Shown here: positions 1,911 through 18,461 of the stretch, one piece after another | Position numbering within the stretch: the stretch's first letter is position 1 | Layout: every line of letters begins with the position of its first letter | DNA from: a virus | IMG/VR virus record: IMGVR_UViG_3300042569_001040 | Span: 1-22,331 of that record | Reading direction: 5' to 3' (one strand) | Length of the DNA stretch: 22,331 bases | Program-made: the position numbers and the translations under genes | The notes under the pieces: generated by a model | Told to the model about the DNA's origin: nothing | What the model saw: only the letters and a program-made list of their open reading frames with translations | Database searches by the model: none

Positions 1911-2450
1911 ATGGACATTTTAAATTTTATTTCCTGGATCAAAGCTAAGCGTGTAACTACTACACCTCCAGATGGATCTCTAGTTGCTGTAGGTGCGCCT
2001 TCAAGAAAAAGAGATGACAAGTATCTTACAGTAGCAATGACATTAAATGATGCAGTACAATCAGGTAATATTGGTAATACTAAACATTATGAGTTAGACA
2101 TGGCAATTACTAGTGTTGTAACAGTAGATACTCCCCGTGGTATTATTGATATTCTTAATATGGGATCATCTGCTCCTTTAACTCCTGATCCAGCTTATGC
2201 TACTTCAGTATCTTTCACAATTGATAATTTAGATTTAGATCTTACTTTAGCCAATAGAGATAATATATATGTACAGTATTCTGTATATTACAAAAACACT
2301 ATAACTGACAATGCTATTCCACACTTAATTGCTACAGGAGCTACAACTGGATTAGATTTTAATTTTTATAATGCAAATCCTGCAATAGCTGGAGTTAATA
2401 ACTGGAATGGTGCATTGTATGTATACTTTGAACTATACACAATTAATTAA
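1911..2450 (+). CDS. Small tail/receptor-binding protein, anchor family A
   Basis: A 179-residue protein. The first 40-45 residues (DILNFISWIKAKRV, then RKRDDKYL) match the start of the 2476 product (DILNFISWIKGKRI, GRRDDDYL) and, more loosely, of 3561. This conserved segment is probably the module that docks the protein on the baseplate or a tail adaptor. The remainder is rich in alternating hydrophobic and Thr/Asn/Asp residues, which suggests a small beta-sandwich head domain; I do not recognise it. There is no signal peptide or membrane segment. It is the first gene after the 1829 terminator and has an AAATAAATAATC leader. No small partner ORF follows it directly: the next gene is its paralogue. 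Confidence 0.65.
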   Translation: MDILNFISWIKAKRVTTTPPDGSLVAVGAPSRKRDDKYLTVAMTLNDAVQSGNIGNTKHYELDMAITSVVTVDTPRGIIDILNMGSSAPLTPDPAYATSVSFTIDNLDLDLTLANRDNIYVQYSVYYKNTITDNAIPHLIATGATTGLDFNFYNANPAIAGVNNWNGALYVYFELYTIN

Positions 2451-2475
2451 TAAATAAAAATAAAAAATAAATAAC

Positions 2476-3105: not shown

Positions 3106-3120
3106 TAAAACTTAAAAATT

Positions 3121-3249
3121 ATGGAAAAAGAAAATAGAGTAACCGCTTTTTTATTAAAAAAGTATGGAGCAGATGTGACAAAAAAAGCTATGGAAGTTTT
3201 TAAAAAAAAACAAAGTGAATATATTCAAAAAGATAAAGCAATAAATTAA
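3121..3249 (+). CDS. 42-residue basic ORF between fibre genes
   Basis: ATG 3121 to TAA 3249 encodes 42 residues with 13 Lys/Arg. It is likely a single amphipathic helical hairpin (FLLKKYGADVTKKAMEVF). The start follows AACTTAAAAATT, the leader style of its neighbours, and it fills the space between 2476 and 3272 neatly. Function unknown. It is one of a set of small genes next to fibre genes but is basic where the others are acidic. Its short length leaves some doubt. Confidence 0.55.
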   Translation: MEKENRVTAFLLKKYGADVTKKAMEVFKKKQSEYIQKDKAIN

Positions 3250-3271
3250 TTAACTATAAAAAATAAATATC

Positions 3272-3493
3272 ATGGCAGCACCAATAGCATTAAAAGAAGC
3301 AAACATTAAAGTATACGCATCAGTATTGATGAATAACTCAGTATCATTAGATGAAAAAGCAGTAGCATTAACTGCAATATATGATTTTTTTGTTAATACA
3401 TATACTAATACTGAAGTATACAATGAATTTGGATTAGGAGTATATTTCCGTGATAGTGTATCAGGTGATATTAAAACTACACAGGTACCGTAA
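3272..3493 (+). CDS. Small fibre-partner protein
   Basis: A 73-residue protein with no recognised domain. A helical segment VSLDEKAVALTAIYDFF (24-40) resembles the 'L(T/D)xxxK...(D)xF/I' helix seen in other small ORFs of this region (4921, 6167, 10889, 13190). The end is a beta-like 'GLGVYFRDSVSGDIKTTQ'. The gene is preceded by AAAAAATAAATATC, almost identical to the leader of 6167, and is followed by a terminator, closing the first fibre unit. It could be a fibre-assembly chaperone or a small structural subunit. This is inference from position only. Confidence 0.6.
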   Translation: MAAPIALKEANIKVYASVLMNNSVSLDEKAVALTAIYDFFVNTYTNTEVYNEFGLGVYFRDSVSGDIKTTQVP

Positions 3494-3503
3494 TTAAAAA
3501 AAT

Positions 3504-3538
3504 AAATACCACAGATATAATATATTTGTGGTATTTTT
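3504..3538 (+). terminator. Intrinsic terminator
   Basis: A perfect 10-bp stem (AAATACCACA/TGTGGTATTT) has a 13-base AT-rich loop and a tail of five T. It closes the 1911-3493 unit. The sequence TATATTTG at 3521-3528 lies inside the loop and right arm. Confidence 0.85.
3521..3528 (+). promoter_or_regulatory. Candidate -7 box TATATTTG inside the terminator
   Basis: This exact TAnnTTTG match is 32 bases upstream of the 3561 start codon. Terminator and promoter would share bases, so read-through and initiation may influence each other. No clear -33 box. Confidence 0.33.
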
Positions 3539-3560
3539 ACATTAAATTAAAATAATAAAG

Positions 3561-4919
3561 ATGTTAAATAACTTAATTAATTTTCTAAATCTTATTTCAA
3601 GTAAGATGATGAAAAAAGTTCCTGAAGATCAAGATTTAATTATTCTTGGTACAAGAGATTCTAAATATGGAGGTGGTTATAAACCTACAGGTATATCAGT
3701 AGCTGATTTTTTAAGTAGTATACCTACACCTACAGTGCCTTTTGGTATTTGGTCATTATCTGATTCTGCAGGTGAAAAAACTTACTATGATACTTATGAA
3801 GATGCAATACCTTTTTTTGATTTTGGAAATGCAATTACTTTAGAGACAAGTACTAATCTAAGTGTAAATTTAGTTCTTAAAAACGGTATAAATATAAACT
3901 TAAATGGTAATACATTAAGAGTAGATGATTCTGCATATATTACTGATAATGGAATATTCGTAAACACTGTTATATTCAATGGTACTATAAGTCTACAAGT
4001 GAGTTCTAACTATGGCCTATACGTATTAAATGCTTCAAGCAAAATATCTATCCCTGCTATTTTAGATGGTACCGGAAACAATTTTTCTAATGGTGTATAT
4101 TCTGTAGGTACAGTGACTGATGCAAATGTAATTGCAAATGAGGGTATGTTTCAAGGAGCTAATACTGCTGTTTTTGATAATTGTAAAATAAGAGCTTTTG
4201 GACCAAATAGAGGAAATCAAGATACTGTTAATGGTCATGCTTTATACTTAGCAGGAGTAGCTTCAAATATGGAAGTTTATTCTACAGTATCTAATAAATA
4301 TTGTGCAAGAGCCCATGTTGCAGGAGCTAGATTAAATAACAGTAGACTTGAATCAACAGCTCATAGATCAGTATTTTTAAATGGAGGTTTTGTTGATGCT
4401 TGTTGGATGAGAGCTCCAAACTTTACATGTAAAGTAGAAGGTGGAGGTACACTACGTAATAGTTATTCTGAATCAAGTGCAGCAGCTCCTATATATTGTC
4501 TTAATCAAGACGGTGCAGTAAGTGATTGTACTTTTGTAGCACAAACAGCCAATGCTTTATACTTTGTAGGAATAGGTACATGGTATAGCAATTGTACATT
4601 TATAAGTAACTTAGCAGCTACAGGTGGATCATTCTTGTCTGGTTCAGAGGTGTTATTTGAAGATTGTAGATTTATATGTAGATGGGATAATGCAGCTGGT
4701 CATTGTGCAAACTTACCTCTTGTTAATACTTCATTTATAGACTGTAAATTTACAACAAGAAATGTTTCTGCATTAGGTATAAATGTAGGAGCTGTAGGCA
4801 TCTACTTAGTAGATAATAAATTCAAAGGTCCTGCTGGATCATTAGGTTATTCAGCATCTTTAATAAACTTAGCATTAAATACACAAGATAACAGAGGTAA
4901 CTCTATAATAAATTACTAA
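3561..4919 (+). CDS. Beta-helix tail spike/fibre (pectate-lyase-like fold)
   Basis: A 452-residue protein. Residues 1-55 are a divergent family-A anchor (NLISSKMMKKVPEDQDLIILGTRDSKYGGGY, then ISVADF). From about residue 63 the chain reads like a parallel beta-helix: a capping segment (FGIWSLSDSAG), then VLKNGININLNGNTL, then many short turns alternating with G-x-(Y/F)-x-x-(N/D)-C and N-x-x-F. The whole ectodomain parallels the last 400 residues of the 7899 product, including VLKNGININ against TLKNGVNIN, CRWDNAAGHC against CKWNNAGGHA, and the closing LNTQDNRGNSI against VNTADAQGNLL. Beta-helix spikes bind and sometimes cleave host polysaccharides; no catalytic residues can be assigned here. 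The regularly placed Cys residues are unusual for an extracellular part. Confidence 0.8.
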   Translation: MLNNLINFLNLISSKMMKKVPEDQDLIILGTRDSKYGGGYKPTGISVADFLSSIPTPTVPFGIWSLSDSAGEKTYYDTYEDAIPFFDFGNAITLETSTNLSVNLVLKNGININLNGNTLRVDDSAYITDNGIFVNTVIFNGTISLQVSSNYGLYVLNASSKISIPAILDGTGNNFSNGVYSVGTVTDANVIANEGMFQGANTAVFDNCKIRAFGPNRGNQDTVNGHALYLAGVASNMEVYSTVSNKYCARAHVAGARLNNSRLESTAHRSVFLNGGFVDACWMRAPNFTCKVEGGGTLRNSYSESSAAAPIYCLNQDGAVSDCTFVAQTANALYFVGIGTWYSNCTFISNLAATGGSFLSGSEVLFEDCRFICRWDNAAGHCANLPLVNTSFIDCKFTTRNVSALGINVGAVGIYLVDNKFKGPAGSLGYSASLINLALNTQDNRGNSIINY

Positions 4920-4920
4920 A

Positions 4921-5124
4921 ATGGATTCAATAGATAAATTAGAAGCAGAAAACGGAGGTCAAGTTTTAAACCAATTAGTTGTTCAGTTAAGTGAAGAAAA
5001 TGGTATTAGAACAATTAAGCAATCCAAATTCTTTACATCAATGGGTGAAGTATACTACAGTAAACTTACAAAAAAAGATAAAGAAGTGTGGGATGCATTT
5101 GTATTAATGATTAGTAATAAATAA
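4921..5124 (+). CDS. Small fibre-partner protein
   Basis: A 67-residue protein starting one base after the stop of the beta-helix gene. It has no known domain. The C-terminal helix KLTKKDKEVWDAFVLMI (48-64) resembles the C-terminal helix of 10889 (LTDEQKILFNDFINL) and the helices of 13190. The N-terminal half reads as a beta-strand pair (LNQLVVQLSEENGIRTIKQSKFF). Tight coupling to one fibre gene suggests a dedicated assembly factor or capping subunit for that fibre, by analogy with tail-fibre assembly proteins. There is no sequence similarity to known Tfa proteins. Confidence 0.65.
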   Translation: MDSIDKLEAENGGQVLNQLVVQLSEENGIRTIKQSKFFTSMGEVYYSKLTKKDKEVWDAFVLMISNK

Positions 5125-5129
5125 GTATC

Positions 5130-6152
5130 ATGGCAGTAGTAACAGTAATAGGCAAACAAGTTGGAGGAGTACCTTTCACAGTACGTGTTGATAGTGTAGC
5201 TGATCATGCATCTGTAGCAAATAATACAAACTTTTTAGATTTATCTGATGGTTTAGTTTATTTTAAAAATTCTACTGGTGCAATTGAAACTATTTTTAGT
5301 GCTTCTGCATCATTGCCAGCATGGTTAGAATCTAATGCAACAGATCTTACTATTTGGAATAATGGAAAAGGTAACGTTGCTACAAACACATCATATGGTG
5401 ATGGTGCACTTAAATCTAATACGTCAGGTTTTGAAAATACAGCTATAGGTCAATTAGCATTACAAAATAATACAACAGGTGCTTATAATATTGCTATTGG
5501 TAATTCTGCTTTACAAAATAATACAACTGGAACAACAAATACAGCAATTGGTCGGTTTGCTTTACAAAATAATACAATAGGAGTTAATAATACTGCTATT
5601 GGTAATCAAGCATTAATCAATAATGTATCGGGTGCTGATAATACTTCTATAGGATATAATTCATTTATTTTTAATACAACTGGAATTAGAAATATTGGAG
5701 TAGGTTCATATTCATTATTTTCTAATACTACCGGTGGTAATAATACAGCTGTAGGTTTTGAAGCATTAAGAAGTAATACCACAAGTAGTAATTTAACAGC
5801 TATAGGTTTTAATGCTTTATATGCAAATACAACAGGTACTAATCTTACTGCTGTAGGATATAGTGCATTAAATTCTAATACATCAGGTTATAATAATGTT
5901 GCAATTGGTAATTCTTCTTTAACAGCAAACACTACAGGAGATAGCAATACAGCAATAGGAAACAATACTCAAAGTGGAAATTTTAGTGGTTCAGTTATAT
6001 TAGGAAATTCTGCTATAGCTACTGCAAATAATCAATTTGTAATTGGTACTGCAGCAGTAAATGCAGGAGCAGTAACAGTAGAAGTAAATGCATCTTCTCA
6101 AGTATGGAATGTAGTTATTAATGGAGTAGCAAGAAAAATCTTGTTAGCATAA
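5130..6152 (+). CDS. Trimeric YadA-like tail fibre, anchor family B
   Basis: A 340-residue protein. Residues 1-60 are anchor family B (a MAVVTV start, then SVADHASVANNTNFLDLSD, LVYFKNSTGAI), shared with the 11184 product. Residues about 88-290 hold roughly eleven 17-residue repeats of the type N-T-A-I-G-x-x-A-L-x-x-N-T-T-G-x-x, the YadA-head/left-handed beta-roll pattern of trimeric adhesins. The end (QFVIGTAAVNAGAVTVEVN) is a short capping domain finishing in GVARKILLA. Such rolls form homotrimeric stalks, fitting a thin receptor-binding fibre. A Trp-containing joint (PAWLESNATDLTIWNNG) links anchor and repeats. No signal peptide or outer-membrane anchor is present, so it is a virion protein and not a cellular autotransporter. 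Confidence 0.82.
   Translation: MAVVTVIGKQVGGVPFTVRVDSVADHASVANNTNFLDLSDGLVYFKNSTGAIETIFSASASLPAWLESNATDLTIWNNGKGNVATNTSYGDGALKSNTSGFENTAIGQLALQNNTTGAYNIAIGNSALQNNTTGTTNTAIGRFALQNNTIGVNNTAIGNQALINNVSGADNTSIGYNSFIFNTTGIRNIGVGSYSLFSNTTGGNNTAVGFEALRSNTTSSNLTAIGFNALYANTTGTNLTAVGYSALNSNTSGYNNVAIGNSSLTANTTGDSNTAIGNNTQSGNFSGSVILGNSAIATANNQFVIGTAAVNAGAVTVEVNASSQVWNVVINGVARKILLA
5397..6015 (+). repeat. In-gene 51-bp repeats coding YadA-like beta-roll
   Basis: About eleven tandem units of roughly 51 bp (17 residues) lie inside the 5130 gene. Near-identical stretches such as TTACAAAATAATACAA occur three times at 5460-5576, the most recently duplicated part. Copy number could vary by slippage or recombination and so change fibre length. 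Confidence 0.85.
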
Positions 6153-6166
6153 TAAAAATAAATATC

Positions 6167-6385
6167 ATGGAATTAGAATTAACAGCAGAACAAATTGCAA
6201 AATCAATATCAGCAGCATATGATAGTGTTGCATTAATTGCAGAATTAAATGCTAAAGAAACTTTAACGGAAGAAGAAACTGCAACAGTAACACGTAATGT
6301 AGAACATATTCGTATTATGATGGGTAAAGAGTGGTTTGTTGAAGGACTTACTAATTTACAAATAACTGAATTACAAGCAATATGA
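6167..6385 (+). CDS. Small acidic helical fibre-partner protein
   Basis: A 72-residue, mostly helical, acidic protein. It has two similar segments: LTEEETATVTRNVEHIRIMM (33-52) and GLTNLQITELQAI (60-72). A two-helix arrangement of this type also appears in 10889 and 13190. Proteins with an 'LTEEE...VTRNVEHI.IM..K.WF..GLT..Q' pattern are, as I recall, common beside phage tail-fibre genes and have no known function. The leader AAAAATAAATATC matches that of 3272. The stop overlaps the next start by ATGA. Confidence 0.65.
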   Translation: MELELTAEQIAKSISAAYDSVALIAELNAKETLTEEETATVTRNVEHIRIMMGKEWFVEGLTNLQITELQAI

Positions 6386-6534
6386 AAGAGTTAGAGGCTA
6401 AACAAGTAATTGAACAAGCTTTAAATCAAGCATTCCTTAAAGGAGCATTTAATTTACAAGATGCAGCTATGATAACACAAGCATTAAGAGTTTTATATTC
6501 TGAACCAGAAGTAGAACTAGTTAGAGAAAATTAA
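6382..6534 (+). CDS. 50-residue helical ORF coupled to 6167
   Basis: ATG 6382 to TAA 6534 encodes 50 residues, entirely helical in appearance (VIEQALNQAFLKGAFNLQDA, then QALRVLYSEPEVEL). It starts within the stop of 6167 (ATGA) and ends five bases before a terminator hairpin, which supports it as a real gene. Function unknown. It may be a second small subunit for the same fibre, as 3121 is in the first unit. Confidence 0.62.
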   Translation: MKELEAKQVIEQALNQAFLKGAFNLQDAAMITQALRVLYSEPEVELVREN

Positions 6535-6538
6535 AAAT

Positions 6539-6569
6539 AAGAGTCACAGTAATGTGGCTTTTCTTTTTT
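6539..6569 (+). terminator. Intrinsic terminator
   Basis: A 10-bp stem with two G-U pairs (AAGAGTCACA/TGTGGCTTTT) closes a GTAA loop, the same loop as the terminator at 56, and is followed by C and six T. It ends the 3561-6534 unit. Confidence 0.78.
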
Positions 6570-6612
6570 ATATTTGTATATCTAGAATCTTTTACGTATA
6601 TTATTATATATA
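6569..6612 (+). promoter_or_regulatory. Candidate promoter region of the long fibre-lysis operon
   Basis: TATATTTG (6569-6576) is an exact TAnnTTTG match. Just downstream, CTTTTACGTATATTAT (6589-6604) repeats the block at 1869. Either could drive the 6626-18461 unit. The region directly follows a terminator and the start codon is at 6626. Confidence 0.4.
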
Positions 6613-6625
6613 AAATCAAATTATT

Positions 6626-7231
6626 ATGTCTGTAGGAAATTTAAAAACATATGGTGGCAAGGGTACCAATATGCCATGGCAATTAAAAATGTTATATGGC
6701 CAAGAATGCGCCTGTGACAATTTAGTTGATATTAATAATAATACTGTTAATGTTGATTCATTACTTAACCAAATATTAACTGCTATTCAAGCAGGAACTG
6801 AATATGAAGCAGCTTTAGTTATTGATGCTAATGATGTTACTTGGTTAGAGATAAGAATTTATAATGCAGGTACGGGAACATTTGATCCACCCGTTTATTA
6901 TTTAGCAGGAACAAATACTCCAGGTACACCAGTTGCACCAATTACTTATATTAATCCTAATACTTACTTAGCTCAAATAGTAAATAATACATCAGCTGTT
7001 ACTAGAACTCCTAATTATATTAGAACTTCTACATCAGGTACAGTTGCTCCAATAACATATAGTCTTTCTATAGCAAATGTAGGAATAGGTGATGGAACTT
7101 TTTTAGGTGCTACAATTAAACCGGGTGAATCAGTAAGTTTTGGACCTGATGGTATTAATAATTATTATGCTGCTTCTACATTTACATATGACGGAACAGG
7201 TACTGAATTACTTATTACATATAATTCATAA
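6626..7231 (+). CDS. Tail/baseplate-associated structural protein
   Basis: A 201-residue protein. The opening (SVGNLKTYGGKGTNMPWQLKML) resembles the N-terminus of structural proteins I associate with tailed phages of Bacteroidota, where a 'GNLK.YG.KG.N.P.Q..vL' segment begins short tail proteins next to fibre genes. A helix about 40-58 (VDSLLNQILTAIQAG) is followed by beta-rich sequence with several G/T/N turns, ending in GTGTELLITYNS. The middle (ALVIDANDVTWLEIRIYNAGTG) resembles a small beta-sandwich. It has no small partner gene and heads three consecutive large genes (6626, 7237, 7899). It may be an adaptor carrying them. Assignment rests on N-terminal pattern and location. Confidence 0.6.
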   Translation: MSVGNLKTYGGKGTNMPWQLKMLYGQECACDNLVDINNNTVNVDSLLNQILTAIQAGTEYEAALVIDANDVTWLEIRIYNAGTGTFDPPVYYLAGTNTPGTPVAPITYINPNTYLAQIVNNTSAVTRTPNYIRTSTSGTVAPITYSLSIANVGIGDGTFLGATIKPGESVSFGPDGINNYYAASTFTYDGTGTELLITYNS

Positions 7232-7236
7232 TACAT

Positions 7237-7899
7237 ATGAGTACTCAAATCTCTACAAAAACAATTGTACAAGATGAAGGTACAACTGTGCTTTCTAATG
7301 ACATTATAAATTTCACCGGAACTGGTGTTACTGTAAGTAGTGTAGGAGGTGCAGCACAAGTAGATATCCCTGGAAATGTTCCATCTACAAGTTATGGGTT
7401 ATATGCTCAAACAACTTCAAGCATACCTGCAACAGGAATTGCTAAAAATAGTATTATCGGTACAGGTGTAGGCACATTAACCGTTCCTGCAAATTCATTT
7501 CAAATAGGAGATTCCTTTACTTGTGAATTAGATGGTTTTTTATCTTGTTTAGGAACGGCAACATTACACATTCACGTTGAAACATTAGCAGGTGTCATTT
7601 TAGCAGATACAGGTATAATAAATATGGATGCAACTACTTCAAAATCGTGGTTATTAAATTTGTTTTTTACAGTTAGAAATATAGGAGGAGCAGGTGTTGC
7701 ATCAATTTCATCAGGTGGTTTATTTTCTTATATTAAAAATGCAGGAGTTAATTTTGAAGGATATGTGTTAAGTCAAATTAATGCTACGACTTTTGATACA
7801 ACAGTAAATAATACCTTAGTTGTAACTGCTCAATGGAATACAGGTAGTGCAAGTAATACTATTCAATCATTTAACTTTGTTTTACAAAAAGTATACTAA
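7237..7899 (+). CDS. Jelly-roll-like tail protein, anchor family C
   Basis: A 220-residue protein. Residues 1-48 (STQISTKTIV, then DIINFTGTGVTVSSVGGAAQVDIPG) match the start of 7899 (STEINIKKRI, SIDFVGSGVNASTIGGDVTVTIPG). This defines anchor family C. The remaining 165 residues look like a single beta-sandwich/jelly-roll domain: GVGTLTVPANSFQIGDSFTC, TLHIHVETLAG, then TFDTTVNNTLVVTAQWN and a final FNFVLQKVY. This kind of domain is common as a trimeric head on phage tail proteins. Its TAA stop shares its last base with the ATG of the next gene (TAATG), so the two are translationally coupled. No enzymatic residues are evident. Confidence 0.65.
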   Translation: MSTQISTKTIVQDEGTTVLSNDIINFTGTGVTVSSVGGAAQVDIPGNVPSTSYGLYAQTTSSIPATGIAKNSIIGTGVGTLTVPANSFQIGDSFTCELDGFLSCLGTATLHIHVETLAGVILADTGIINMDATTSKSWLLNLFFTVRNIGGAGVASISSGGLFSYIKNAGVNFEGYVLSQINATTFDTTVNNTLVVTAQWNTGSASNTIQSFNFVLQKVY

Positions 7900-10883
7900 T
7901 GAGTACAGAAATAAACATAAAAAAAAGAATTGCAGTTTTAGAAGAATCTGCAATAATAACGGCAGATGTAAACAGTATTGACTTTGTAGGTTCAGGTGTT
8001 AATGCATCTACAATAGGTGGTGATGTTACCGTTACTATTCCTGGTGGATCAGGTAATACTACATATTACTTAAACCAAACTGTAGATCAGTCTCCTTATA
8101 AAGAATTTTCATCAATTGTTACTAGTGCAATAGAACAAGTTGTACCATTAACAGTTGCAGGAGGAGTAACTTCTGTAATTGCTGAGTATCAAACACCTAG
8201 TGGTATACCAGGTACTATACAAATACCAGGAGGATTATGGCAATTCTTTTTACACTTCAATGCAGTAGCAGCAGGTCAAAATTGGATAATTAGACCTACA
8301 GTATATAAAAGAGATTTAGGTGGAATAGAAACATTGATTTTTACTCCTGATCCTGAGATAGTTACAGGAATGTCTACTACTACTACAATGTATGTATCTG
8401 ACGGTGTATTTCCAGCAACTACATTATTAACTACAGATAGAATAGTAGTAAAAATATCAATGCAAAATACTACTGGTGTATCTCAAACTGTAAACTTTAG
8501 AACAGAAGGTAGTCAACATTACTCAGTAGGATTAACAACATTAAATCAAATTATACCAACAGGAGCAGTTACAAATGTAACAGGAACAGCTCCAGTAGTA
8601 TCTTCAGGAGGTACAACACCTGCTATTAGTATTCCTCAAGCAGATACACTAACAGATGGGTACCTTTCTTCTACAGATTGGAATACATTTAATAACAAAC
8701 CTGATAATCTTAGTCAACTTAATGATGTAGATATTATTACGACTCCACTAGGAGATGGTGAAATTCTTACTTATGATGGAGTATCAGGGCTTTGGAAAAA
8801 TGAACCTCCAAACAGTACTCCAACAAATCAAGTTGTTTTATTTGCAGATTTAGGAACAACAGAAGCGTTAAAGGCTTGCACGTATAATAATGGTACTTTA
8901 GGTGTTGGAGCCACTTTAACTGGTAATGTTAATGGTCAATTATCAACTATATCTTTTACAGATAGAATTGATAATGTTGTAACTGCATTAAATCAAATAA
9001 TATTAGTTAGAAGTCAATCAAACCAAACTCAAAACGGTATATATGTAGTAACGCAACTGGGAAGTCCTTCACAGCCATTTATTATTACAAGAACAACTGA
9101 TGCCGATACCCAAACTGAACTATATCCTTTACAAATAAATATATTCGGGGGTTCAACTTTAGCTAACTTGGCATTTCTACAAAAGACAGTTGATCCAGTT
9201 GTTGGCACAAGTAACATAGTATTTACAACCACAGTAGTAGGGATTCAAAATACGCCAGTATTACATATAGATACTGTTACTTCTGCTCCGCTACCTACTT
9301 GTACTTATACATCTGGAACCAATCCAACATTACCTGGATCAGGTGCATTTTTGGAAGCAACTGTCAATGGAACTTTTCCTTCTATAAATGGTGTAACATT
9401 AACTGCTGGACGTAGATTTCTTGTGAAAGACCAAGTAAACCAAGCACATAATGGGACGTATGCAGTATCTAATATAGGAAGTGCAAGTACAAAATGGAGA
9501 ATTTTCCGTGTTGACGCTTGGGGGGGAAACTTTACAGTTTTAGAAAGAGAGTGGAAAGTAAATAATCCTTCCAGTACTAAATACGGGGCAAGATACTCTA
9601 CTAACTTACTTGGATTAGCAAATACAAACGTAGGAATTACGTCTATACCATTTTTTGAGGCAATTACATCATCTGCAGGAATATTTGGTATAGCAAACAC
9701 AAGTGGTGTTTATACTTTTTACGCAACACTTACACTAGCAATGGCAGTAGCGGTAACTGGTGACACTATTGTACAATTTGCAAACGTTATTGAAACTGGT
9801 AACGTAACTATCACTCTTAAAAATGGAGTAAATATTAATGGTAACGGATATACATACACATATTCTAATATTGCTGGGCATTGCTTTATAGATAATGCAT
9901 CTACAGTTATTTGTAATATAATTAATTTTTACCCAATCAGATCGTCAGCAAGTGGCTCAAGTAGTGTTTGGAATATAACTGGGGCAAGTAGTGAAATATA
10001 CTTTTATGGGGGATTGACAAAAGACACTGTAAATACAGCACATACTACAGCTATATTCAACTGTAAAGTTATGGAAGGATATAACGGATTGGTAACTGAT
10101 GTCTCAGCAGGGGTTACTGGATGTGCGGTTAGTATTGGTATCTTTAGAAATGTTAAATCAATAGTCAGTTCTGGAGGTGGGACTGGTTTTTATGTAACAG
10201 CTACGTGTGTGTCAGCAACAAATATTTATGGTTATTCTATATCCTCTTTCACCTATGGAGTCCTAATTTCTGGGGGCGGAACTTATACAAATATAACTGG
10301 GGAATCAATTGCTGGATTAGGTCTTGGTAGTAATGCTAGTTCAGCTAAGATATATAATAGTGTTGGTAGAAGTACTACAGAAAAAGGGCTTCATTCTAGC
10401 AATGGAGGTTTATGGATTAATTGTGTTGGTATTTCTTCTTCTTATATTGGGTTAAATGCTTATGGTGGTACATTTAAAAATTGTAACGGATATTCAGCAA
10501 CAGGAAATGGTGTATACTTACAAGATGGTAACGATGTTAATGATGTATCGTTCAATGGAGGTACAGCGACAAGTGATGGTGCTGTAGCTATGGTTAGGAG
10601 TGCTGGAGCTGGTTATAAAAACACTATAAAATCAGTATCAATAACTTGTAAATGGAATAATGCTGGTGGACATGCATTTCAAAAAATTAGTAGTGGTAAC
10701 GTTTGGTTATCAAATTGTTCATTAGCTGTTACAAATGCATCAGCTAACTGTTTACACGCTACATCTGCTGTAACAATGACTTGGGGATTAAATACATTTG
10801 AAGGTTCAACTACTGCGGTTAATGCTAATGTTACTCAGTTGTTAGTTAATACTGCTGATGCACAAGGAAACTTATTATTATAA
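7899..10883 (+). CDS. Large multidomain tail fibre with C-terminal beta-helix
   Basis: A 994-residue protein, the largest in the window. Domain order: anchor family C (1-50); a jelly-roll-like domain (55-220) like that of 7237; a linker VTNVTGTAPVVSSGG, then LTDGYLSSTDWNTFNNKP (about 230-268), a standard phage-fibre joint; two tandem copies of a phage repeat domain (about 309-455 and 462-595); and a beta-helix (596-994) homologous to the ectodomain of 3561. The repeat domain has the common form '(L)..CTY.(N/S)GT...G.GA.L.ATVNG....I......GRR.LVKDQ..Q..NGTY.V'. Beta-helix turns carry N-x-x-G and G-x-Y motifs, and the protein ends VNTADAQGNLLL. It probably forms a long trimeric receptor-binding fibre. 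GGG codons and G-runs are more frequent from about 9100 onwards than in neighbouring fibre genes. Confidence 0.82.
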   Translation: MSTEINIKKRIAVLEESAIITADVNSIDFVGSGVNASTIGGDVTVTIPGGSGNTTYYLNQTVDQSPYKEFSSIVTSAIEQVVPLTVAGGVTSVIAEYQTPSGIPGTIQIPGGLWQFFLHFNAVAAGQNWIIRPTVYKRDLGGIETLIFTPDPEIVTGMSTTTTMYVSDGVFPATTLLTTDRIVVKISMQNTTGVSQTVNFRTEGSQHYSVGLTTLNQIIPTGAVTNVTGTAPVVSSGGTTPAISIPQADTLTDGYLSSTDWNTFNNKPDNLSQLNDVDIITTPLGDGEILTYDGVSGLWKNEPPNSTPTNQVVLFADLGTTEALKACTYNNGTLGVGATLTGNVNGQLSTISFTDRIDNVVTALNQIILVRSQSNQTQNGIYVVTQLGSPSQPFIITRTTDADTQTELYPLQINIFGGSTLANLAFLQKTVDPVVGTSNIVFTTTVVGIQNTPVLHIDTVTSAPLPTCTYTSGTNPTLPGSGAFLEATVNGTFPSINGVTLTAGRRFLVKDQVNQAHNGTYAVSNIGSASTKWRIFRVDAWGGNFTVLEREWKVNNPSSTKYGARYSTNLLGLANTNVGITSIPFFEAITSSAGIFGIANTSGVYTFYATLTLAMAVAVTGDTIVQFANVIETGNVTITLKNGVNINGNGYTYTYSNIAGHCFIDNASTVICNIINFYPIRSSASGSSSVWNITGASSEIYFYGGLTKDTVNTAHTTAIFNCKVMEGYNGLVTDVSAGVTGCAVSIGIFRNVKSIVSSGGGTGFYVTATCVSATNIYGYSISSFTYGVLISGGGTYTNITGESIAGLGLGSNASSAKIYNSVGRSTTEKGLHSSNGGLWINCVGISSSYIGLNAYGGTFKNCNGYSATGNGVYLQDGNDVNDVSFNGGTATSDGAVAMVRSAGAGYKNTIKSVSITCKWNNAGGHAFQKISSGNVWLSNCSLAVTNASANCLHATSAVTMTWGLNTFEGSTTAVNANVTQLLVNTADAQGNLLL
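8820..9690 (+). repeat. Two tandem fibre repeat domains in the 7899 gene
   Basis: Two copies of a domain of about 140 residues lie at roughly 8820-9265 and 9280-9690. Parallel landmarks are LKACTYNNGTLGVGATLTGN against LPTCTYTSGTNPTLPGSGAF, VRSQSNQTQNGIYVVTQLGS against VKDQVNQAHNGTYAVSNIGS, then FIITRTTDAD against WRIFRVDAWG. The copies are diverged, so the duplication is old or the copies were acquired separately. Confidence 0.75.
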
Positions 10884-10888
10884 ATATT

Positions 10889-11182
10889 ATGGAACTAATT
10901 AAAATAGACATTATCAACGGGCAAATCATTAAAAGATTTAGTGATGATTCAGTATCATCTTTGTTATTATCGGAGCTGACAAATTCACAAAAAGTAGTTG
11001 TAGATAACTGTATTGCAATGATGAAAACTATGGAGAATGAATGGTTATTCATCTCAATAAACATTATTAATCCAATAACTAGACTGGTGTTTTTTCTAAC
11101 ATTGGATACATTTACAGAATTTTTATATGAAGATTTGACAGATGAACAAAAAATACTATTTAACGATTTTATAAATTTATAA
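10889..11182 (+). CDS. Small fibre-partner protein with two similar helices
   Basis: A 97-residue acidic protein. Two similar helical segments, LTNSQKVVVDNCIAMM (30-45) and LTDEQKILFNDFINL (83-97), flank a strongly hydrophobic beta-like stretch (WLFISINIINPITRLVFFLTL, 52-72). 13190 has the same length and layout. The central stretch could be taken for a membrane segment, but it contains Asn, Pro and Arg and fits buried beta-strands equally well. It is cotranscribed with the 7899 fibre (five bases after its stop) and ends one base before the next fibre gene. It is probably a dedicated partner of one of them; the function is not known. Confidence 0.62.
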   Translation: MELIKIDIINGQIIKRFSDDSVSSLLLSELTNSQKVVVDNCIAMMKTMENEWLFISINIINPITRLVFFLTLDTFTEFLYEDLTDEQKILFNDFINL

Positions 11183-11183
11183 C

Positions 11184-13187
11184 ATGGCAGTAATAACAGT
11201 AACAGGTTCCCCAGTAGTAGGTTTAAAATACACGGTAACAACAGCTTCAAGTGCTGATTGGGCAAGTGTATCTAATTCAACTTACTTTTATGATTTAACA
11301 GATAAGTTAGTTCATTATAAAGATTCAACTGGAACAGTATTAGAAATATTTGGTGCAGCAGGAGGTGGTTCTATACCACAAGCTAATAAAATTTATGTAG
11401 ATTCAATAAATGGGGTTGATTCAACTGCAAGAGGTAATATTAATAATCCTTACTTAACTCCTGAGTATGCCTTATCTGACATTACAAATACAGGGACATT
11501 TGGATGTACAACAGCAACAAGTGTAACCGTGTCGGCTATTTCAGATGTGAATTATGCTTCAATAAGTGTAGGAGATGTAATATCAGGAACAGGCATAGGA
11601 GTAAACACAATTGTAAAAAGTAAAGATGGAGGTGGAGTAAATGCAAAAGTTATCACGTTAAGTAAGGCAACAACAACAAGTGCTTCAATAACAGCTACTA
11701 GAGTGACTCAATACATGGTTATTTGCTCAGGAACTTATATTTATTCATCAAATTTAGAAAAAGATGGGTTTTCTTTTGATTTTAACAGTTGTAATGTTAT
11801 TTTTTCGGGTATTGTTTTTAATGTCACAGTTGCAAGAACAACACCGAGAATTATTTTAGGTGGTAATTGGTTTGGGAATAATTCAGCAAGTAGGTTAATT
11901 TATTCAGACTATTTAACTTGCGCAACCGATTTTATTTTTAAACCTTTAAATTATTACTCTATTGGAACAGGGGATCAAATTAGATTATCAAATGCTTATT
12001 CTTTTGGGAATATGTTAGTTGATTGCCCAAATTTTGACGCAAGATTTGGTAGTGTTGGATGGATAGAAGGTGGGAATTGTACATGGAACGGTTATAGATA
12101 TGGTTTACTTGGTGGTATTCGTGCTGGTGCTGGAATTTACGAATTTAATGGCTCTCAAGTTTGCCCTGCGTCTATAAATGCTTATTTTAGTAATACTAAC
12201 GGCACTATTATAACTAGTAATGATTCAATAATAAACGGACAATTGACTTTAAATGAATCTTCAAGTAGTTATTATGTGTTTTCTGGAGGAAATATAACAG
12301 GCACAACAATGACAATTGGAAGTACTTATGATTTAACCCCTCCTCTTTTGATTTCTTCCAACATAACGGCTACCACTATTAATATAATAGGGTCTAGGGG
12401 TGGAGTGATGTTGTCAGGAATAATAAAGGCGAATATTGTAAATACAAAAACACTAGGAAGTGTCGATATTGCAAATTTACAAGGTTCTTATACGGGATCT
12501 AGTACTTCCGAAGCAACCATAAAAGGGGGTTGGCATACAGACGGGAATTCTTCTTCAATATCTAGCGTAACATTGACGGGAACGGCTAGTCTAATTATTG
12601 TTGATTCTTATAAAAGTTTTGGATATACTACCAATGGGTACTGCTATTTGAACATAGCTAGTGGTTGCAATTTAAGAATAGACGGTTTTTTTAAAGGTAT
12701 TATATCTTCATTAGCTGGTACAATTACAAATAATGGAGTTTTTAACATCAATGGTTATCAATCAGCAATTATTACTGGAACTGTTTTAAATAATAATTAT
12801 ATTGAATTGTTTAGAACATCATCGGAAAACTCACTTGACACGCCTACAATAAAACTAGGAAACGGAGGGGTTTATCAACAGAACGGAGGTAAGTTAATAT
12901 GCAATGTAGCAACTTCAAAAAGTGGATTAATTCAAAAGACAGCCACTAACAGTAAAATTCAACTTACAGGACAAGCTTATTTAAAAGTAGCAAATGGTTT
13001 AGCACCTATCCAAATACTTTCAAATACTGGAACAGCACAAGATGTTGAAGTTTATTCTGTAATTGATAACTGCGCTGTAGGTTTCAGAATATCAGATACG
13101 TTTTCAGATACAACTTATGGAACAGCATACGCACCAAATATATTAGTAGGTGGAACAATGTTAGAGGCAACAACTTATTTATTATAA
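11184..13187 (+). CDS. Beta-helix tail spike, anchor family B
   Basis: A 667-residue protein. Residues 1-60 are anchor family B (MAVITV, then SADWASVSNSTYFYDLTDKLVHYKDSTG), shared with 5130. Residues 70-100 carry the entry motif of a pectate-lyase-like beta-helix: IYVDSINGVDSTARG, then NPYLTPEYAL. An insert of about 75 residues (105-178, with ISVGDVISGTGIGVNTIV and KVITLSKATTTSASITATRV), a beta domain common in phage fibres, interrupts the helix before it resumes with MVICSGTYIYSSNL. From there to about 640 there are many short beta-turn repeats with G-N-W-F-G-N, I-x-G-x-(I/Y) and N-N-x-x-F. The C-terminus (LVGGTMLEATTYLL) is a short cap. Polysaccharide binding or degradation is plausible but no active site can be named. 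GGG, ACG and CGA-type codons are commoner than in the first fibre genes. Confidence 0.78.
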   Translation: MAVITVTGSPVVGLKYTVTTASSADWASVSNSTYFYDLTDKLVHYKDSTGTVLEIFGAAGGGSIPQANKIYVDSINGVDSTARGNINNPYLTPEYALSDITNTGTFGCTTATSVTVSAISDVNYASISVGDVISGTGIGVNTIVKSKDGGGVNAKVITLSKATTTSASITATRVTQYMVICSGTYIYSSNLEKDGFSFDFNSCNVIFSGIVFNVTVARTTPRIILGGNWFGNNSASRLIYSDYLTCATDFIFKPLNYYSIGTGDQIRLSNAYSFGNMLVDCPNFDARFGSVGWIEGGNCTWNGYRYGLLGGIRAGAGIYEFNGSQVCPASINAYFSNTNGTIITSNDSIINGQLTLNESSSSYYVFSGGNITGTTMTIGSTYDLTPPLLISSNITATTINIIGSRGGVMLSGIIKANIVNTKTLGSVDIANLQGSYTGSSTSEATIKGGWHTDGNSSSISSVTLTGTASLIIVDSYKSFGYTTNGYCYLNIASGCNLRIDGFFKGIISSLAGTITNNGVFNINGYQSAIITGTVLNNNYIELFRTSSENSLDTPTIKLGNGGVYQQNGGKLICNVATSKSGLIQKTATNSKIQLTGQAYLKVANGLAPIQILSNTGTAQDVEVYSVIDNCAVGFRISDTFSDTTYGTAYAPNILVGGTMLEATTYLL

Positions 13188-13189
13188 TC

Positions 13190-13501
13190 ATGAAAACAAT
13201 AAACAAAATAGTATATGCACCAATCTACAAAACATTTGTAATTGATTTAGGTGAAACTGGTGAAAATATTGCTACTGATATAACAACTATGTCAGAAGCA
13301 GACCAATTAGTGTTTTTAGATCTATGGGAAGCATGTAAGTTACAGATTGATGTAATTGGTTACTTAGTGTATGATAAGTCTTCTGACGTGCTTAATATTG
13401 ATCCCTTAGATATTTCTATTAGCTCAGTGCTATTAGATGAAAGCCAAAGAGGTAAACTAGATGCAGTTCTAGTAATTTGTGAATCTTTAATTATTGAATA
13501 A
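13190..13501 (+). CDS. Small fibre-partner protein with two similar helices
   Basis: A 103-residue acidic protein starting two bases after the 11184 stop. The layout parallels 10889: an N-terminal strand (VYAPIYKTFVIDL), a first helix MSEADQLVFLDLWEACK (34-50), a hydrophobic beta-like middle, and a second helix LLDESQRGKLDAVLVICESLI (81-101). Its TAA shares one base with the ATG of the next fibre gene (TAATG), so translation is coupled. No domain is recognised. It is probably the partner of either the upstream spike or the downstream YadA-like fibre. Confidence 0.62.
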   Translation: MKTINKIVYAPIYKTFVIDLGETGENIATDITTMSEADQLVFLDLWEACKLQIDVIGYLVYDKSSDVLNIDPLDISISSVLLDESQRGKLDAVLVICESLIIE

Positions 13502-14739
13502 TGGCAATAGTATATACAAAAACTGATCAAGGATTAACAGTTGCAACAGGCACAGGAGCACCTGTACATACGGCAGTTGCAGGAGATAGGTATACAGATA
13601 CAGCAAACGGTAACACATATCAATATACCACAAGTTGGCAAAGTGTTTCTTATAGCGCAGGTGGATTAACTTATTTTACAGAAGCACAGAACACAACAGC
13701 ACCTAATGCTACTGTTCCTGTAGATAGTTTAACAGCTCTTTCAGCAACTACAAATGTAGACTTTGCAATTATACCTAAAGCAGGAGGTGCTTTACTTGCG
13801 GCTATTCCCGACAATACTTTTGCTGGTGGTAATAAAAGAGGTCAATTTGCGCTAGATTTACAAATGTCACGTTCAAGTGCAGTAATGGTTGCAAGTGGCA
13901 ATTTTTCCACAATTTTAGGAGGTTCAAATAACACTGCAATTGGGGCAAGTAGTTTAGCGGCTGGTTTAAATAATAGTGTTACTGGTGGTAATTCTGTTGC
14001 TATTGGGCAAAATAATAGTTCAACTAATACAAATTCATATTCTTTTGGTAATGAAAACCTTTCAAATGGGCTTAATAGTGTAGCAATAGGAAGATTTAAT
14101 AACGCAAGTGGAACAAGTTCTGTTGCAATAGGTGGAAATATTTCAACTTATAACCTTGCAAGTGGTACACGGTCTGTTGCTATTGGAGAAGCCAATACAG
14201 CAAGTGGATTAAATTCAACAGCTTTAGGTCAATTAAATATAAGTAATGGTTCATATTCATTTTCTTTTGGTAGACAAGCTCATACATTTGGAATAGATGG
14301 AAGACAAGCATACGCAAGTGGTCAAGAAGGCACAAGTGGTGATGCTCAAGTATCTAAGTTTATATTGCACGAAAGAACTACTGGAAACACAACAACTACT
14401 ATTACTACAAACTCAAGTGCAGCGGCTACAAATAATCAAGTAATACTATCAGACCAATCTGCATATAGATTCAAAGGTAGCATTGTAGGTAAGCAATCAG
14501 GTAGTGTAAACGCAGCAGTCTGGGATATTGATGGATTCATTGTAAGAGGTGCAAACGCAACAGCTACAACATTAAATATTTCAAATGTAAATGTAGTACA
14601 AAATACTCCAGGTTGGGGAACACCAACACTTGCAGCAGATACAACAAACGGAGGTCTTAGAGTGCAAGTAACTGGAGCAACTGCAACTAACATCCAATGG
14701 ACTGCAGTAATAGATACAACAGAGGTAATTTACGCTTAA
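13501..14739 (+). CDS. Trimeric YadA-like tail fibre with tip domain
   Basis: A 412-residue protein. The N-terminus (AIVYTKTDQGLTVATGTGAPVHTAVAGDRYTD, then GNTYQYTTSWQS) reads as a small adaptor domain not shared with the other fibres. After a hinge (about 60-125, including the FAGGNKRGQFALDLQM motif common before such heads), residues 128-262 hold YadA-head repeats with varied unit length: ILGGSNNTAIG, SVAIGQNN, YSFGNENLSNGLNSVAIG, SVAIGEANTASGLNSTALG. The C-terminal 150 residues (KFILHERTTG, YRFKGSIVGKQSG, DIDGFIVRGANAT, NTPGWGTPTLAADTTNGG, then IQWTAVIDTTEV) form a tip domain found on many phage fibres. Together this is a trimeric receptor-binding fibre with stalk and globular head. Confidence 0.82.
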   Translation: MAIVYTKTDQGLTVATGTGAPVHTAVAGDRYTDTANGNTYQYTTSWQSVSYSAGGLTYFTEAQNTTAPNATVPVDSLTALSATTNVDFAIIPKAGGALLAAIPDNTFAGGNKRGQFALDLQMSRSSAVMVASGNFSTILGGSNNTAIGASSLAAGLNNSVTGGNSVAIGQNNSSTNTNSYSFGNENLSNGLNSVAIGRFNNASGTSSVAIGGNISTYNLASGTRSVAIGEANTASGLNSTALGQLNISNGSYSFSFGRQAHTFGIDGRQAYASGQEGTSGDAQVSKFILHERTTGNTTTTITTNSSAAATNNQVILSDQSAYRFKGSIVGKQSGSVNAAVWDIDGFIVRGANATATTLNISNVNVVQNTPGWGTPTLAADTTNGGLRVQVTGATATNIQWTAVIDTTEVIYA

Positions 14740-16123: not shown

Positions 16124-16570
16124 ATGAAAACTTCACAACAAGGCATAGACCTGATTAAGGGATTTGAAGGATGTAAGTTAAAAGCTTATGTTGATCCTGG
16201 AACTGGTGGATTACCAATTACGATTGGGTATGGAAACACAGCTAGAAAGGATGGTAGTAAGTTTAAATTAAGTGATAAAATTACTCAAGAAAGAGCTAAT
16301 GAATTATTCTTAGAGTTGCTTCCTAAGTATGAAGCTACTGTAGATAAGAATATAAAGGTTACTTTAAACCAAAATCAATATGATGCACTAGTATCTTTTT
16401 GTTGGAATTGTGGTAGTTCAAAAGATTTATTTGGTTTAATAAATAAAAAGTCTACTGATGCAGTTATATATGATTGGTGGATAAACCATTATATTACAGG
16501 AGGTGGAAAGTTACTTCCTGGATTATTAAAGAGAAGAAGAAAAGAAGCAGATTTATACATTAAAAAATAA
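16124..16570 (+). CDS. Endolysin, GH24 (T4-type) lysozyme
   Basis: A 148-residue muramidase that cleaves the N-acetylmuramic acid to N-acetylglucosamine bond of peptidoglycan. It has the GH24 signature: GFEGCKLKAYVDPG at 13-26 with catalytic Glu15 and Asp24, followed by ITIGYGNT (32-39), where Thr33 fills the third conserved position. Compared with the usual E-8-D-5-T spacing there are three extra residues (GTGGLP turn). Downstream landmarks are QNQYDALVSFCWNCG and LPGLLKRRRKEADLY, both typical of the family. There is no signal peptide or SAR anchor, so it needs a holin to reach the wall; the next gene is a holin candidate. Confidence 0.93.
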   Translation: MKTSQQGIDLIKGFEGCKLKAYVDPGTGGLPITIGYGNTARKDGSKFKLSDKITQERANELFLELLPKYEATVDKNIKVTLNQNQYDALVSFCWNCGSSKDLFGLINKKSTDAVIYDWWINHYITGGGKLLPGLLKRRRKEADLYIKK

Positions 16571-16574
16571 GATT

Positions 16575-16787
16575 ATGAAAGATTTAAAAAAAAGATGGGA
16601 TGCTAAAACTCCAACATTTTGGAAAAAAATACAAAAAATTGGTATTATAGCAGGAACAATTGGAGGAATAATTGTTGCTTCTCCTGTAGTATTACCTGCA
16701 ATATTGGTATCAGCTAGTGGATATTTATTATTAGCTGGAACTGTAACTGCCACATTATCACAGTTAACCGTAGAATCAACAGATTAA
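16575..16787 (+). CDS. Holin-like small membrane protein
   Basis: A 70-residue protein with a basic N-terminus (KDLKKRWDAKTPTFWKKIQK) and two closely spaced hydrophobic segments, about 21-36 (IGIIAGTIGGIIVA) and 39-60 (VLPAILVSASGYLLLAGTVTAT), separated by a Pro turn, with a short acidic tail. Size, topology and position four bases after the endolysin fit a class II holin that makes the inner-membrane hole releasing the endolysin. No internal second start (dual start) is evident. Confidence 0.75.
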   Translation: MKDLKKRWDAKTPTFWKKIQKIGIIAGTIGGIIVASPVVLPAILVSASGYLLLAGTVTATLSQLTVESTD

Positions 16788-16860
16788 TTTTAAAAAAGTG
16801 TACTGTATCTAGCAAAATTTAACTATATTAGAATATATATTATTTTTTATTTTTATTACT

Positions 16861-17172
16861 ATGGATTCAATAATTACAATAGGTTTATTCTGTATAGGTT
16901 TTATTATTACACTTATAGGGTACTTTTTAAAGACAACACACACATCAATAATAGCAGATGTACAAATTCTTAAATCTAATGATCAAGCTCACACAGAAGA
17001 AGAGGGTAGATTAAAAGGTAAAATAGAATTACTTGAACAAGAGCATAGACTTAAATATCAGTTGATCACAGAAACAACTCAACAAGAGATTAAGAATATG
17101 GCTACTAAAATTGGTGAGTTATCTGATACAGTTGGTAAACTAATTACCATTCAACTTAAAAATATAAAATGA
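16861..17172 (+). CDS. Membrane-anchored coiled-coil protein (spanin or holin-accessory candidate)
   Basis: A 103-residue protein: one N-terminal transmembrane segment (IITIGLFCIGFIITLIGYFL, 4-23) and a long charged coiled coil (about 35-100) with heptad-like hydrophobics (GKIELLEQEHRLKYQLI). This is the shape of an inner-membrane spanin (Rz type) or of a holin-accessory protein. No matching outer-membrane lipoprotein is embedded or adjacent; the nearest lipoprotein candidate is at 1528. It is separated from the holin gene by 73 AT-rich bases (16788-16860) with no hairpin, and overlaps the next gene by ATGA. Confidence 0.65.
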   Translation: MDSIITIGLFCIGFIITLIGYFLKTTHTSIIADVQILKSNDQAHTEEEGRLKGKIELLEQEHRLKYQLITETTQQEIKNMATKIGELSDTVGKLITIQLKNIK

Positions 17173-17660
17173 ATCCTACATTTTTAAAAACAGGAGATAT
17201 ATTACATTGTAGTGGTAAAAAATTATTAAGTAGATTAATTAAAAAAGCTACTAAATCTAAATTTAGCCACTCAGCAGTATTTATAGAAATATGGGGTCAA
17301 CCATATGTATTAGATGCACAAAAAGATGGTGTTAATCTAAGACCATTAAATGATTGGTTAAAAAAATACAATTACAATATTACTGTACACAGATCATCTA
17401 ACTTAGTAAATGAAAAAACATTTGCACAAAGAGCACTTACAAAAGTAGGACATACAGCATATGACTTTGAAAGTTTACTTATAAGACAACCAATTGAATT
17501 GCTAACAGGTAAATGGGTAGAAAAAGGAGATACAACTAAAGCAATGTATTGTTCTGAATATATTGCCTGGATATATGGAGTAGAAAAAGCATATAAGTTT
17601 TCACCTCAAGATCTTTATGAATGGTGTAAAGCTAATTTCTTTTATGAAATTGTAATTTAA
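17169..17660 (+). CDS. Permuted NlpC/P60-like (YiiX-type) cysteine hydrolase
   Basis: A 163-residue protein with the permuted papain-like layout of the YiiX/C92 group. It has a GDI(L/V) start strand (LKTGDILHC, 6-14), then FSHSAVFIE (32-40) with catalytic His34 and acidic Glu40, and a late nucleophile in MYCSEYIAWIY (126-136), Cys128. In this group the His precedes the Cys. Members hydrolyse peptide or amide bonds in peptidoglycan or acyl groups on lipids and proteins. In a lysis cassette, cleavage of wall peptide is the natural reading, complementing the GH24 glycosidase. There is no signal peptide. The ATGA overlap with 16861 couples it to the membrane protein. Confidence 0.78.
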   Translation: MNPTFLKTGDILHCSGKKLLSRLIKKATKSKFSHSAVFIEIWGQPYVLDAQKDGVNLRPLNDWLKKYNYNITVHRSSNLVNEKTFAQRALTKVGHTAYDFESLLIRQPIELLTGKWVEKGDTTKAMYCSEYIAWIYGVEKAYKFSPQDLYEWCKANFFYEIVI

Positions 17661-17703
17661 ATTTGTATTTTTATAATCAAGTTTAATCAATAAATAATAG
17701 GTT

Positions 17704-18306
17704 ATGATTTTAAGTCAAATTAGAAATGCTATTAACTCTAAAGGCTACAAGTGGTTTGATGATGTAGCAAACAAAAGCTATGATGTTAATATAGTAGGAG
17801 TACGTAATAGTTCTACTGGTAAAAAAGTTACTAATGTATTTGATGATATTATTACAATATCATATAAAGATGCTAAAGGCATATGGCAATATCATGAATG
17901 GATGAATACAACTGAGCCAGGTAAAAAGGGTGTAATGCAGTATAGCAATTCTAAAGGTGTAGCAAGACTTATTCCTGGACAATATAGAGGTGTGTGGTCT
18001 ATTGATAAGCACCAAGGTAAATATGAAGCCTTATGTCAAAGAAACGGTACTGTAGCAGTTTTTAGAGATAATAATAAAGACATGACCTTTGATGAAATAA
18101 CTAGAGATAATGGTATGTTTGGTATTAATATTCACAAAGCAGGTCAAGACTCTACATGGGTAGAAAACTGGTCAGAAGGATGTCAAGTATTTAAAAGAGT
18201 AAAAGACTTTGATGAGTTTATGAAGATTTGTAAACTAGCAGCAAAGATACACGGTAATCATTTTACCTATACATTAATAGAATCTAAAGATATAGCAGCA
18301 GTATGA
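17704..18306 (+). CDS. L,D-transpeptidase-like (YkuD-type) protein
   Basis: A 200-residue protein. The core FGINIHKAG (139-147) and WSEGCQVF (156-163) carry the arrangement of L,D-transpeptidase catalytic domains, usually H-x14-17-(S/T)-x-G-C: His144, Ser157, Gly159, Cys160. Before it, LIPGQYRGVWSIDKHQG and VAVFRDNN are beta-strands expected of the fold. L,D-transpeptidases form or exchange 3-3 crosslinks in peptidoglycan; phage relatives may instead cut or modify the wall. The N-terminal 60 residues are not recognised. The leader AATAATAGGTT follows a 43-base gap. The stop overlaps the next ORF (ATGA). Alternatives: another cysteine amidase or a tail-associated wall enzyme. Confidence 0.65.
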   Translation: MILSQIRNAINSKGYKWFDDVANKSYDVNIVGVRNSSTGKKVTNVFDDIITISYKDAKGIWQYHEWMNTTEPGKKGVMQYSNSKGVARLIPGQYRGVWSIDKHQGKYEALCQRNGTVAVFRDNNKDMTFDEITRDNGMFGINIHKAGQDSTWVENWSEGCQVFKRVKDFDEFMKICKLAAKIHGNHFTYTLIESKDIAAV

Positions 18307-18461
18307 AATTAAGAAATGCTTGGAAGATAAAAAATAAACAATGGGATAAAGTGTGTATAAGAGTCCGTCTTGGAGTTTTAGACTTTTTTACTATTGAATT
18401 TGATATAGATAGAAGTTTTTATATGCTGACTATATTAAACTTTACAATCAAAAATAGATAA
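18303..18461 (+). CDS. 52-residue ORF ending the lysis cassette
   Basis: ATG 18303 to TAA 18461 encodes 52 residues. The first part is basic (KLRNAWKIKNKQWDKVCIRVRL) and the second hydrophobic and strand-like (VLDFFTIEFDIDRSFYMLTILNFTI). It starts within the stop of the L,D-transpeptidase-like gene (ATGA) and is followed 22 bases later by a strong terminator, both of which support a real gene. Function unknown. It could be a small membrane-associated lysis regulator, but no clear transmembrane helix is seen. Confidence 0.55.
   Translation: MKLRNAWKIKNKQWDKVCIRVRLGVLDFFTIEFDIDRSFYMLTILNFTIKNR

Follow-up and report, generated by a model that had tools for sequence, protein, structure and literature searches.

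A lysis cassette in a divergent crAss-like phage encodes a YkuD-like protein that we consider fairly likely to be an endolysin-type, wall-cutting LD-type cysteine hydrolase, in a late cassette of interchangeable parts whose Peptidase_C92 protein would act on envelope lipids or acylated proteins. Known YkuD-fold enzymes build or trim the bacterial wall; in a crAss-like phage this fold probably breaks it. This reading draws on the exchange of the gene with other lysin genes in one slot of the cassette, on a relative (G006) in which it is the sole recognisable lysin, on its lysin neighbours and fusions in other genomes, and on its fold match to DpaA and its catalytic motif.

The lysis cassette and its phage

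The window, that is, the whole stretch of DNA analysed, comprises positions 1 to 22,331 of the 22.3-kb virus record IMGVR_UViG_3300042569_001040 (IMG/VR). Its cassette, at 16124-18461, consists of six closely packed ORFs on the + strand (Table 1), located as in an initial annotation made from the sequence, with 4-bp overlaps at 17169-17172 and 18303-18306. As in holin-endolysin cassettes, the lysin genes adjoin holin-type membrane genes, which are TM70 and CC103 in the window and a PF05105 holin elsewhere (L041 and G006). The arrangement is seen again in independent contigs and the three enzyme genes (GH24, C92 and YkuD-like) are under purifying selection (dN/dS about 0.12-0.25), so that it is not due to chance. 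The cassette is a known kind of module, carrying a catalytic family barely present in catalogues.

Table 1. Features of the cassette in the window.
Feature	Position	Strand	Basis
GH24 muramidase, 148 aa	16124..16570	+	PF00959, phrog_7, PDB lysozymes
TM70, 70-aa cationic hydrophobic-hairpin membrane protein, holin-like or accessory	16575..16787	+	
CC103, N-terminal TM and coiled-coil protein	16861..17172	+	
Peptidase_C92 (YaeF/YiiX-type permuted papain-like) enzyme, 163 aa	17169..17660	+	PF05708, 3kw0
YkuD-like protein, phrog_3000 family, 200 aa, predicted hydrolase	17704..18306	+	phrog_3000, AlphaFold model, motif
52-aa basic ORF	18303..18461	+	71-100% identity among relatives

A contig that is 100% identical to the window across the cassette region (G012) encodes a Crassvirus major capsid protein (Crass_capsid), as do most relatives of the window phage, and the window ends within the 5' part of a terminase gene (phrog_6681). 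The phage is therefore a divergent crAss-like phage, its Crassvirales capsid protein being found through G012. The window also holds, at 1911-14739, consecutive tail-fibre-like genes with repeated N-terminal modules before differing bodies (MDILNFISWIK at 1911 and 2476; MAVVTV/MAVITV at 5130 and 11184), two of which include head-repeat (NTAIGNSAL) adhesin-type motifs. These genes look like a duplicated and swapped set of receptor-binding proteins.

The GH24 product matches PF00959 (Pfam, E=6.8e-29), phrog_7 endolysins (PHROGs, 7e-40) and PDB lysozymes (2e-22). Its putative catalytic residues, read from the sequence, are E15, D24 and T33; it has neither a signal peptide nor a TM segment, and its dN/dS is about 0.16. 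TM70, which has no family match in Pfam or NCBIfam, is hydrophobic at about residues 21-61 and is present in nearly all cassette variants. CC103 has a single N-terminal hydrophobic segment (residues 1-26) and alternates with a PF05105 holin (Phage_holin_4_1) in other variants. The PF00959 match, the hairpin in 16575 and the TM segment in 16861 bear out the lysis cassette with GH24 muramidase and holin-like and coiled-coil membrane proteins that had been annotated here.

Family, fold and active site of the YkuD-like protein

The 17704 product belongs to phrog_3000, annotated as of 'unknown function' (PHROGs, E=6.7e-32), and has no match above cut-off in Pfam or NCBIfam. When PF03734 was tried, it did not match the protein and reached one of 42 family members, at E=0.009; the family profile, searched against PDB sequences, retrieved chance matches only. 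The product also matches the C-terminal part of phrog_33083, an 'endolysin' family (2.6e-10), the N-terminal part of which matches the GH24 protein of the window. The profile coordinates hint at a natural fusion of GH24 and YkuD-like domains behind phrog_33083; the actual protein underlying it was sought and not recovered.

The AlphaFold2 model of the 17704 product (pLDDT 95.8, pTM 0.92; 42 aligned homologues) has a single credible Foldseek match in the PDB, DpaA (8ikr), with probability 0.98, E 9e-3, 13% identity and TM 0.39. The match is modest, and the assignment to a YkuD-like fold is further supported by the S-x-G-C motif shared with LdtB, LdtD and DpaA. When profiles were compared, the family showed no similarity to E. 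coli DpaA, entered as a single sequence, and negative controls were likewise null.

The catalytic motif, IH144-x12-S157-E-G-C160-Q-V, combines a histidine with S/T-x-G-C. H103, S157 and G159 are invariant among 152 distinct homologues, and H144 and C160 are conserved in 151. The sole copy without equivalents of H144 and C160 is a baseplate-hub fusion in the 634-kb phage LR745206 (L198, 3044-4570), where His is replaced by Ile and Cys by Ser; the copy in a related 642-kb phage (L197) retains both catalytic residues. Both residues had been named in the initial annotation, together with His34 and Cys128 of the C92 protein, and both pairs prove to be conserved. Two residues after the cysteine (C+2), LdtB (SHGCVRL) and LdtD (SSGCVRV) have Arg. 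Many LD-transpeptidases expose this Arg to a two-entrance groove, and DpaA (SIGCYAM) has a buried Ala, Ala145, in its place (PMC10653827). In the present family the position is Val in 149 of 152 homologues and Arg in none, which argues for a hydrolase.

An exchangeable lysin slot

The genes of IMG/VR relatives follow the order GH24 or nothing, TM70, CC103 where present, C92 or nothing, a variable gene X and the 52-aa ORF; in variants without CC103 a PF05105 holin lies upstream of TM70. Most contigs have the YkuD-like gene as X, which in part reflects the retrieval of many of them with this gene. In five contigs X is Peptidase_M15_3 (PF08291; L098-L101 and L105, 1.7e-15 for L098) and in one a divergent GH24 (L097), and the flanking C92 and terminase genes of these slot-swapped contigs are 80-92% identical to those of the window. 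No YkuD-like gene was found in the M15-bearing contig G010 (91.5 kb). The 52-aa ORF marks the downstream border of the slot, whatever enzyme occupies it.

The initial annotation had drawn attention to three enzymes lying together. This holds for the window but not as a fixed set, because relatives carry GH24+C92+YkuD, GH24+YkuD, C92+YkuD, C92+M15, C92+GH24 or YkuD alone. Where GH24 is missing in L013 and L014, the upstream gene is separated from TM70 by 2 bp, and the cassettes of L040-L044 are reduced to holin, TM70 and YkuD-like gene. In a profile search of contigs, PF00959 was not found in G001-G011, and the YkuD-like gene occurred without GH24 in G001-G009. The PF05708 search of 14 contigs, however, missed the C92 gene in G001, G002 and G012, where tblastn gave 98-100% identity, so that absences from this search alone are weak, and the ORFs of G006 and G005 were therefore scanned directly with Pfam (ORFs of at least 80 aa; a 12-kb ORF of G006 was left out). 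In G006, the 91-kb crAss-like contig of L044, the scan of 68 ORFs found crAss markers and a holin (PF05105); among the matches listed (the best 25 of 28 families, the remaining 3 being weak, E>5.7e-4) there was no further family of lysins. In G005 (118 kb, 105 ORFs) C92 is present, with no classical lysin among the families listed (the best 25 of 32, the remaining 7 with E>1.4e-7). The slot exchange, the YkuD-only cassettes and G006 are most simply explained if the YkuD-like protein can serve as the endolysin.

Wider distribution of the YkuD-like family

Homologues in the isolated phages crAss002, Rudgehvirus jaberico, DAC16 and SJC03, which include crAss-like and other Bacteroides phages, are labelled 'hypothetical protein', and that of ctcc615 'peptidoglycan-binding domain 1 protein'. 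The gene directly follows GH24 (L059, L071-L074) or GH19 (L045 and others) in large phages and Amidase_2 or GH108 in Bacteroidota loci, the Amidase_2, GH108 and GH19 neighbours being confirmed by Pfam. In marine Bacteroidota phages, as in P2-like prophages, its neighbours encode hydrophobic proteins of holin-like type. A lysin lies within 300 bp of 26 of 82 genome copies, not all of them independent, against none of the 614 other genes of these loci; in viral contigs outside the window clade the corresponding values are 10/37 and 11/502, again with copies that are not all independent. In L247 the YkuD-like copy is fused to PG_binding_1 (6e-16), and in L197 a Phage_base_V baseplate-hub protein (1.4e-5) has this domain at its C-terminal end. 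T4 gp5, a protein of the same type, carries a lysozyme. The copies that follow Amidase_2 (L228, L249 and other Bacteroidota loci) are longer, and in L228 the additional C-terminus comprises a hydrophobic segment and a lysine-rich tail, a composition suggesting a membrane-anchored form.

No recognised neighbour accompanies 86 of the 152 distinct copies, and no lysin is nearby in many large phages or in chromosomal copies beside DUF2589-like genes. Three copies on Bacteroidota chromosomes (L211, L221, L224) are located apart from lysis genes, with conserved downstream genes that are DUF2589-like by eye, and possibly represent a non-phage use of the family. The crAss002 gene and its counterparts in related Intestiviridae lie beside an exonuclease and the terminase, and the stretch inspected there contains no annotated lysis gene. 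The protein is 71-75% identical between the window phage and the unrelated L045-L088 contigs (up to 290 kb), whose other genes do not match, which suggests recent horizontal spread. Among the papers searched, none on crAss-like phages mentioned a transpeptidase.

The C92 protein

The permuted NlpC/P60-like hydrolase that had been recognised at 17169 is confirmed by its match to PF05708 (Peptidase_C92; 41 bits, cut-off 27, E=2.7e-10). The protein also matches BcPPNE (3kw0), by sequence (E=5e-12) and in Foldseek (probability 1.00), and its putative catalytic residues C128, H34, D49 and Y98, in permuted order, are invariant or nearly so and align with those of BcPPNE and YiiX; H34 and C128 are present in 21 of 21 homologues. 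The structural model is mediocre (pLDDT 72.7) and gives a partial Foldseek match to the N-acetylmuramoyl-L-alanine amidase of Bacteroides uniformis (4q5k; probability 1.00, 75 columns). A tblastn search of the phage collection with the C92 protein gave no match.

Proposed lysis pathway and alternative explanations

While the cassette genes, their exchange and the fold match are computational results, the activities of all the cassette enzymes are predicted ones. The small membrane proteins 16575 and 16861 would open or permeabilise the inner membrane. Of the two leaderless wall enzymes, the GH24 muramidase would cut glycan strands, and the YkuD-like protein would cut stem peptides as an LD-type cysteine hydrolase, presumably an LD-endopeptidase or carboxypeptidase. 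An enzyme hydrolysing the bond at the L-centre of meso-DAP would open 4-3 as well as 3-3 cross-links. The C92 protein may help to breach the membranes by way of envelope lipids or acylated proteins. A YkuD-like protein working alongside the muramidase, as the initial annotation had proposed, is supported as a predicted activity. The endolysin reading is weakened by the low TM score and identity to DpaA, by the null profile comparison, by the many copies without a recognised neighbour and by the genomic context in crAss002.

The annotation had further suggested that the YkuD-like protein might cut, mask or re-crosslink peptidoglycan, with delayed lysis or action on 3-3 cross-links as examples. 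A real L,D-transpeptidase that re-crosslinks or masks the wall and so delays lysis would agree with the YkuD-like fold and the SxGC motif, and delayed or gradual lysis has been reported for crAss001, DAC15 and DAC17 (PMC8375218). This reading has become very improbable, however: the C+2 Arg is missing from every homologue, the fold is best matched by a hydrolase, DpaA, the slot is swapped with M15 and GH24 hydrolases, and the family is co-located with amidases and glycosidases and fused to the baseplate hub, a site of phage wall-cutting domains. A protein that, like DpaA, frees outer-membrane proteins from meso-DAP and so provides a spanin-like uncoupling, not degradation of cross-links, is less hard to accept but still unlikely; DpaA is the best fold match, the small hydrophobic C+2 residue recalls its Ala145 (PMC10653827), and a muramidase is also in the cassette. 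Yet the gene interchanges with true wall hydrolases; in G006, moreover, no other wall enzyme is recognisable, and uncoupling would by itself not suffice for lysis there. There is also a small chance that the gene is a moron, a mobile accessory with no part in lysis, and lies beside lysis genes by coincidence, as its similarity between crAss-like and 200-290-kb phages with unmatched other genes and the many copies without lysin neighbours might indicate; the lysin adjacency and fusions, the conserved active site and its place as sole lysin candidate in G006 speak against this.

For the C92 protein, a role as peptidoglycan amidase or endopeptidase, with three wall enzymes acting together, is a possible though not the favoured explanation. 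It is consistent with membership of the NlpC/P60 superfamily, the partial match to 4q5k and the location within the cassette. Its closest relatives, YiiX (2if6) and BcPPNE (3kw0), however, have hydrophobic, lipid-type S1 pockets (that of YiiX holds a fatty acid), and their structures were taken to speak against a wall substrate (PMC3142127); a distant permuted NlpC/P60 enzyme, Tox-Act1, cleaves phospholipids, with measured phospholipase activity (PMC12994826). An envelope lipid or lipoprotein target is also favoured because C92 is retained when the wall enzyme next to it is replaced, and because the cassette has no recognised spanin pair. By analogy with its relatives, the C92 protein most likely acts on envelope lipids or acylated proteins. 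Of the three wall-active enzymes in the initial annotation, GH24 and the YkuD-like protein are supported as such and C92 is not, so that the set is probably two wall enzymes and a possible membrane-acting one.

With the endolysin-type reading as a basis, a more tentative proposal is that YkuD-fold LD-hydrolases form a new class of stand-alone endolysins, sole or interchangeable in crAss-like and other Bacteroidota phages, and that in the window phage the enzyme is paired with a C92 protein that replaces spanins by attacking lipids or lipoproteins of the envelope, with one enzyme for each layer of the envelope.

Significance and comparison with known systems

Catalogues of phage lytic proteins contain very few YkuD-type domains. 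An endolysin role for this widespread family would account for host lysis by some crAss-like phages without annotated lysins, assign a function to phrog_3000 in crAss002, DAC16 and Rudgehvirus jaberico, and add an endolysin of cysteine type whose cut is at the L-centre of meso-DAP. Outer-membrane disruption without a recognised spanin is the testable question posed by the C92 partner.

Like DpaA (E. coli YafK/LdtF), the YkuD-like protein is a YkuD-fold cysteine hydrolase by prediction, with an I-H...S-x-G-C motif and no C+2 Arg (Ala in DpaA, Val here), but DpaA is exported, chromosomal and removes Lpp, whereas the phrog_3000 family is leaderless and phage-borne. YkuD-family L,D-transpeptidases (LdtB, LdtD, YkuD; PF03734) share the S-x-G-C loop after a conserved His and differ in their C+2 Arg, signal peptide and LysM, and in that the 17704 family has no Pfam match above cut-off. 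The M15 endolysins (PF08291) occupy the same cassette slot in sister crAss-like phages, as a peptidase partner of, or substitute for, the muramidase, but they are zinc metallopeptidases of an unrelated fold. The C92 protein resembles YiiX and BcPPNE in its Pfam family and in the published catalytic set, C128-H34-D49-Y98 here; it differs in being leaderless and in lying in a phage lysis cassette. PhaLP already counts a YkuD-type domain as a phage lytic enzyme, with 10 entries (via cd16913, PF03734 and PF10908) compared with 2309 for Ami_2 and 1834 for GH24 (PMC8310338); the 17704 family differs from that class in that Pfam models do not reliably detect it.
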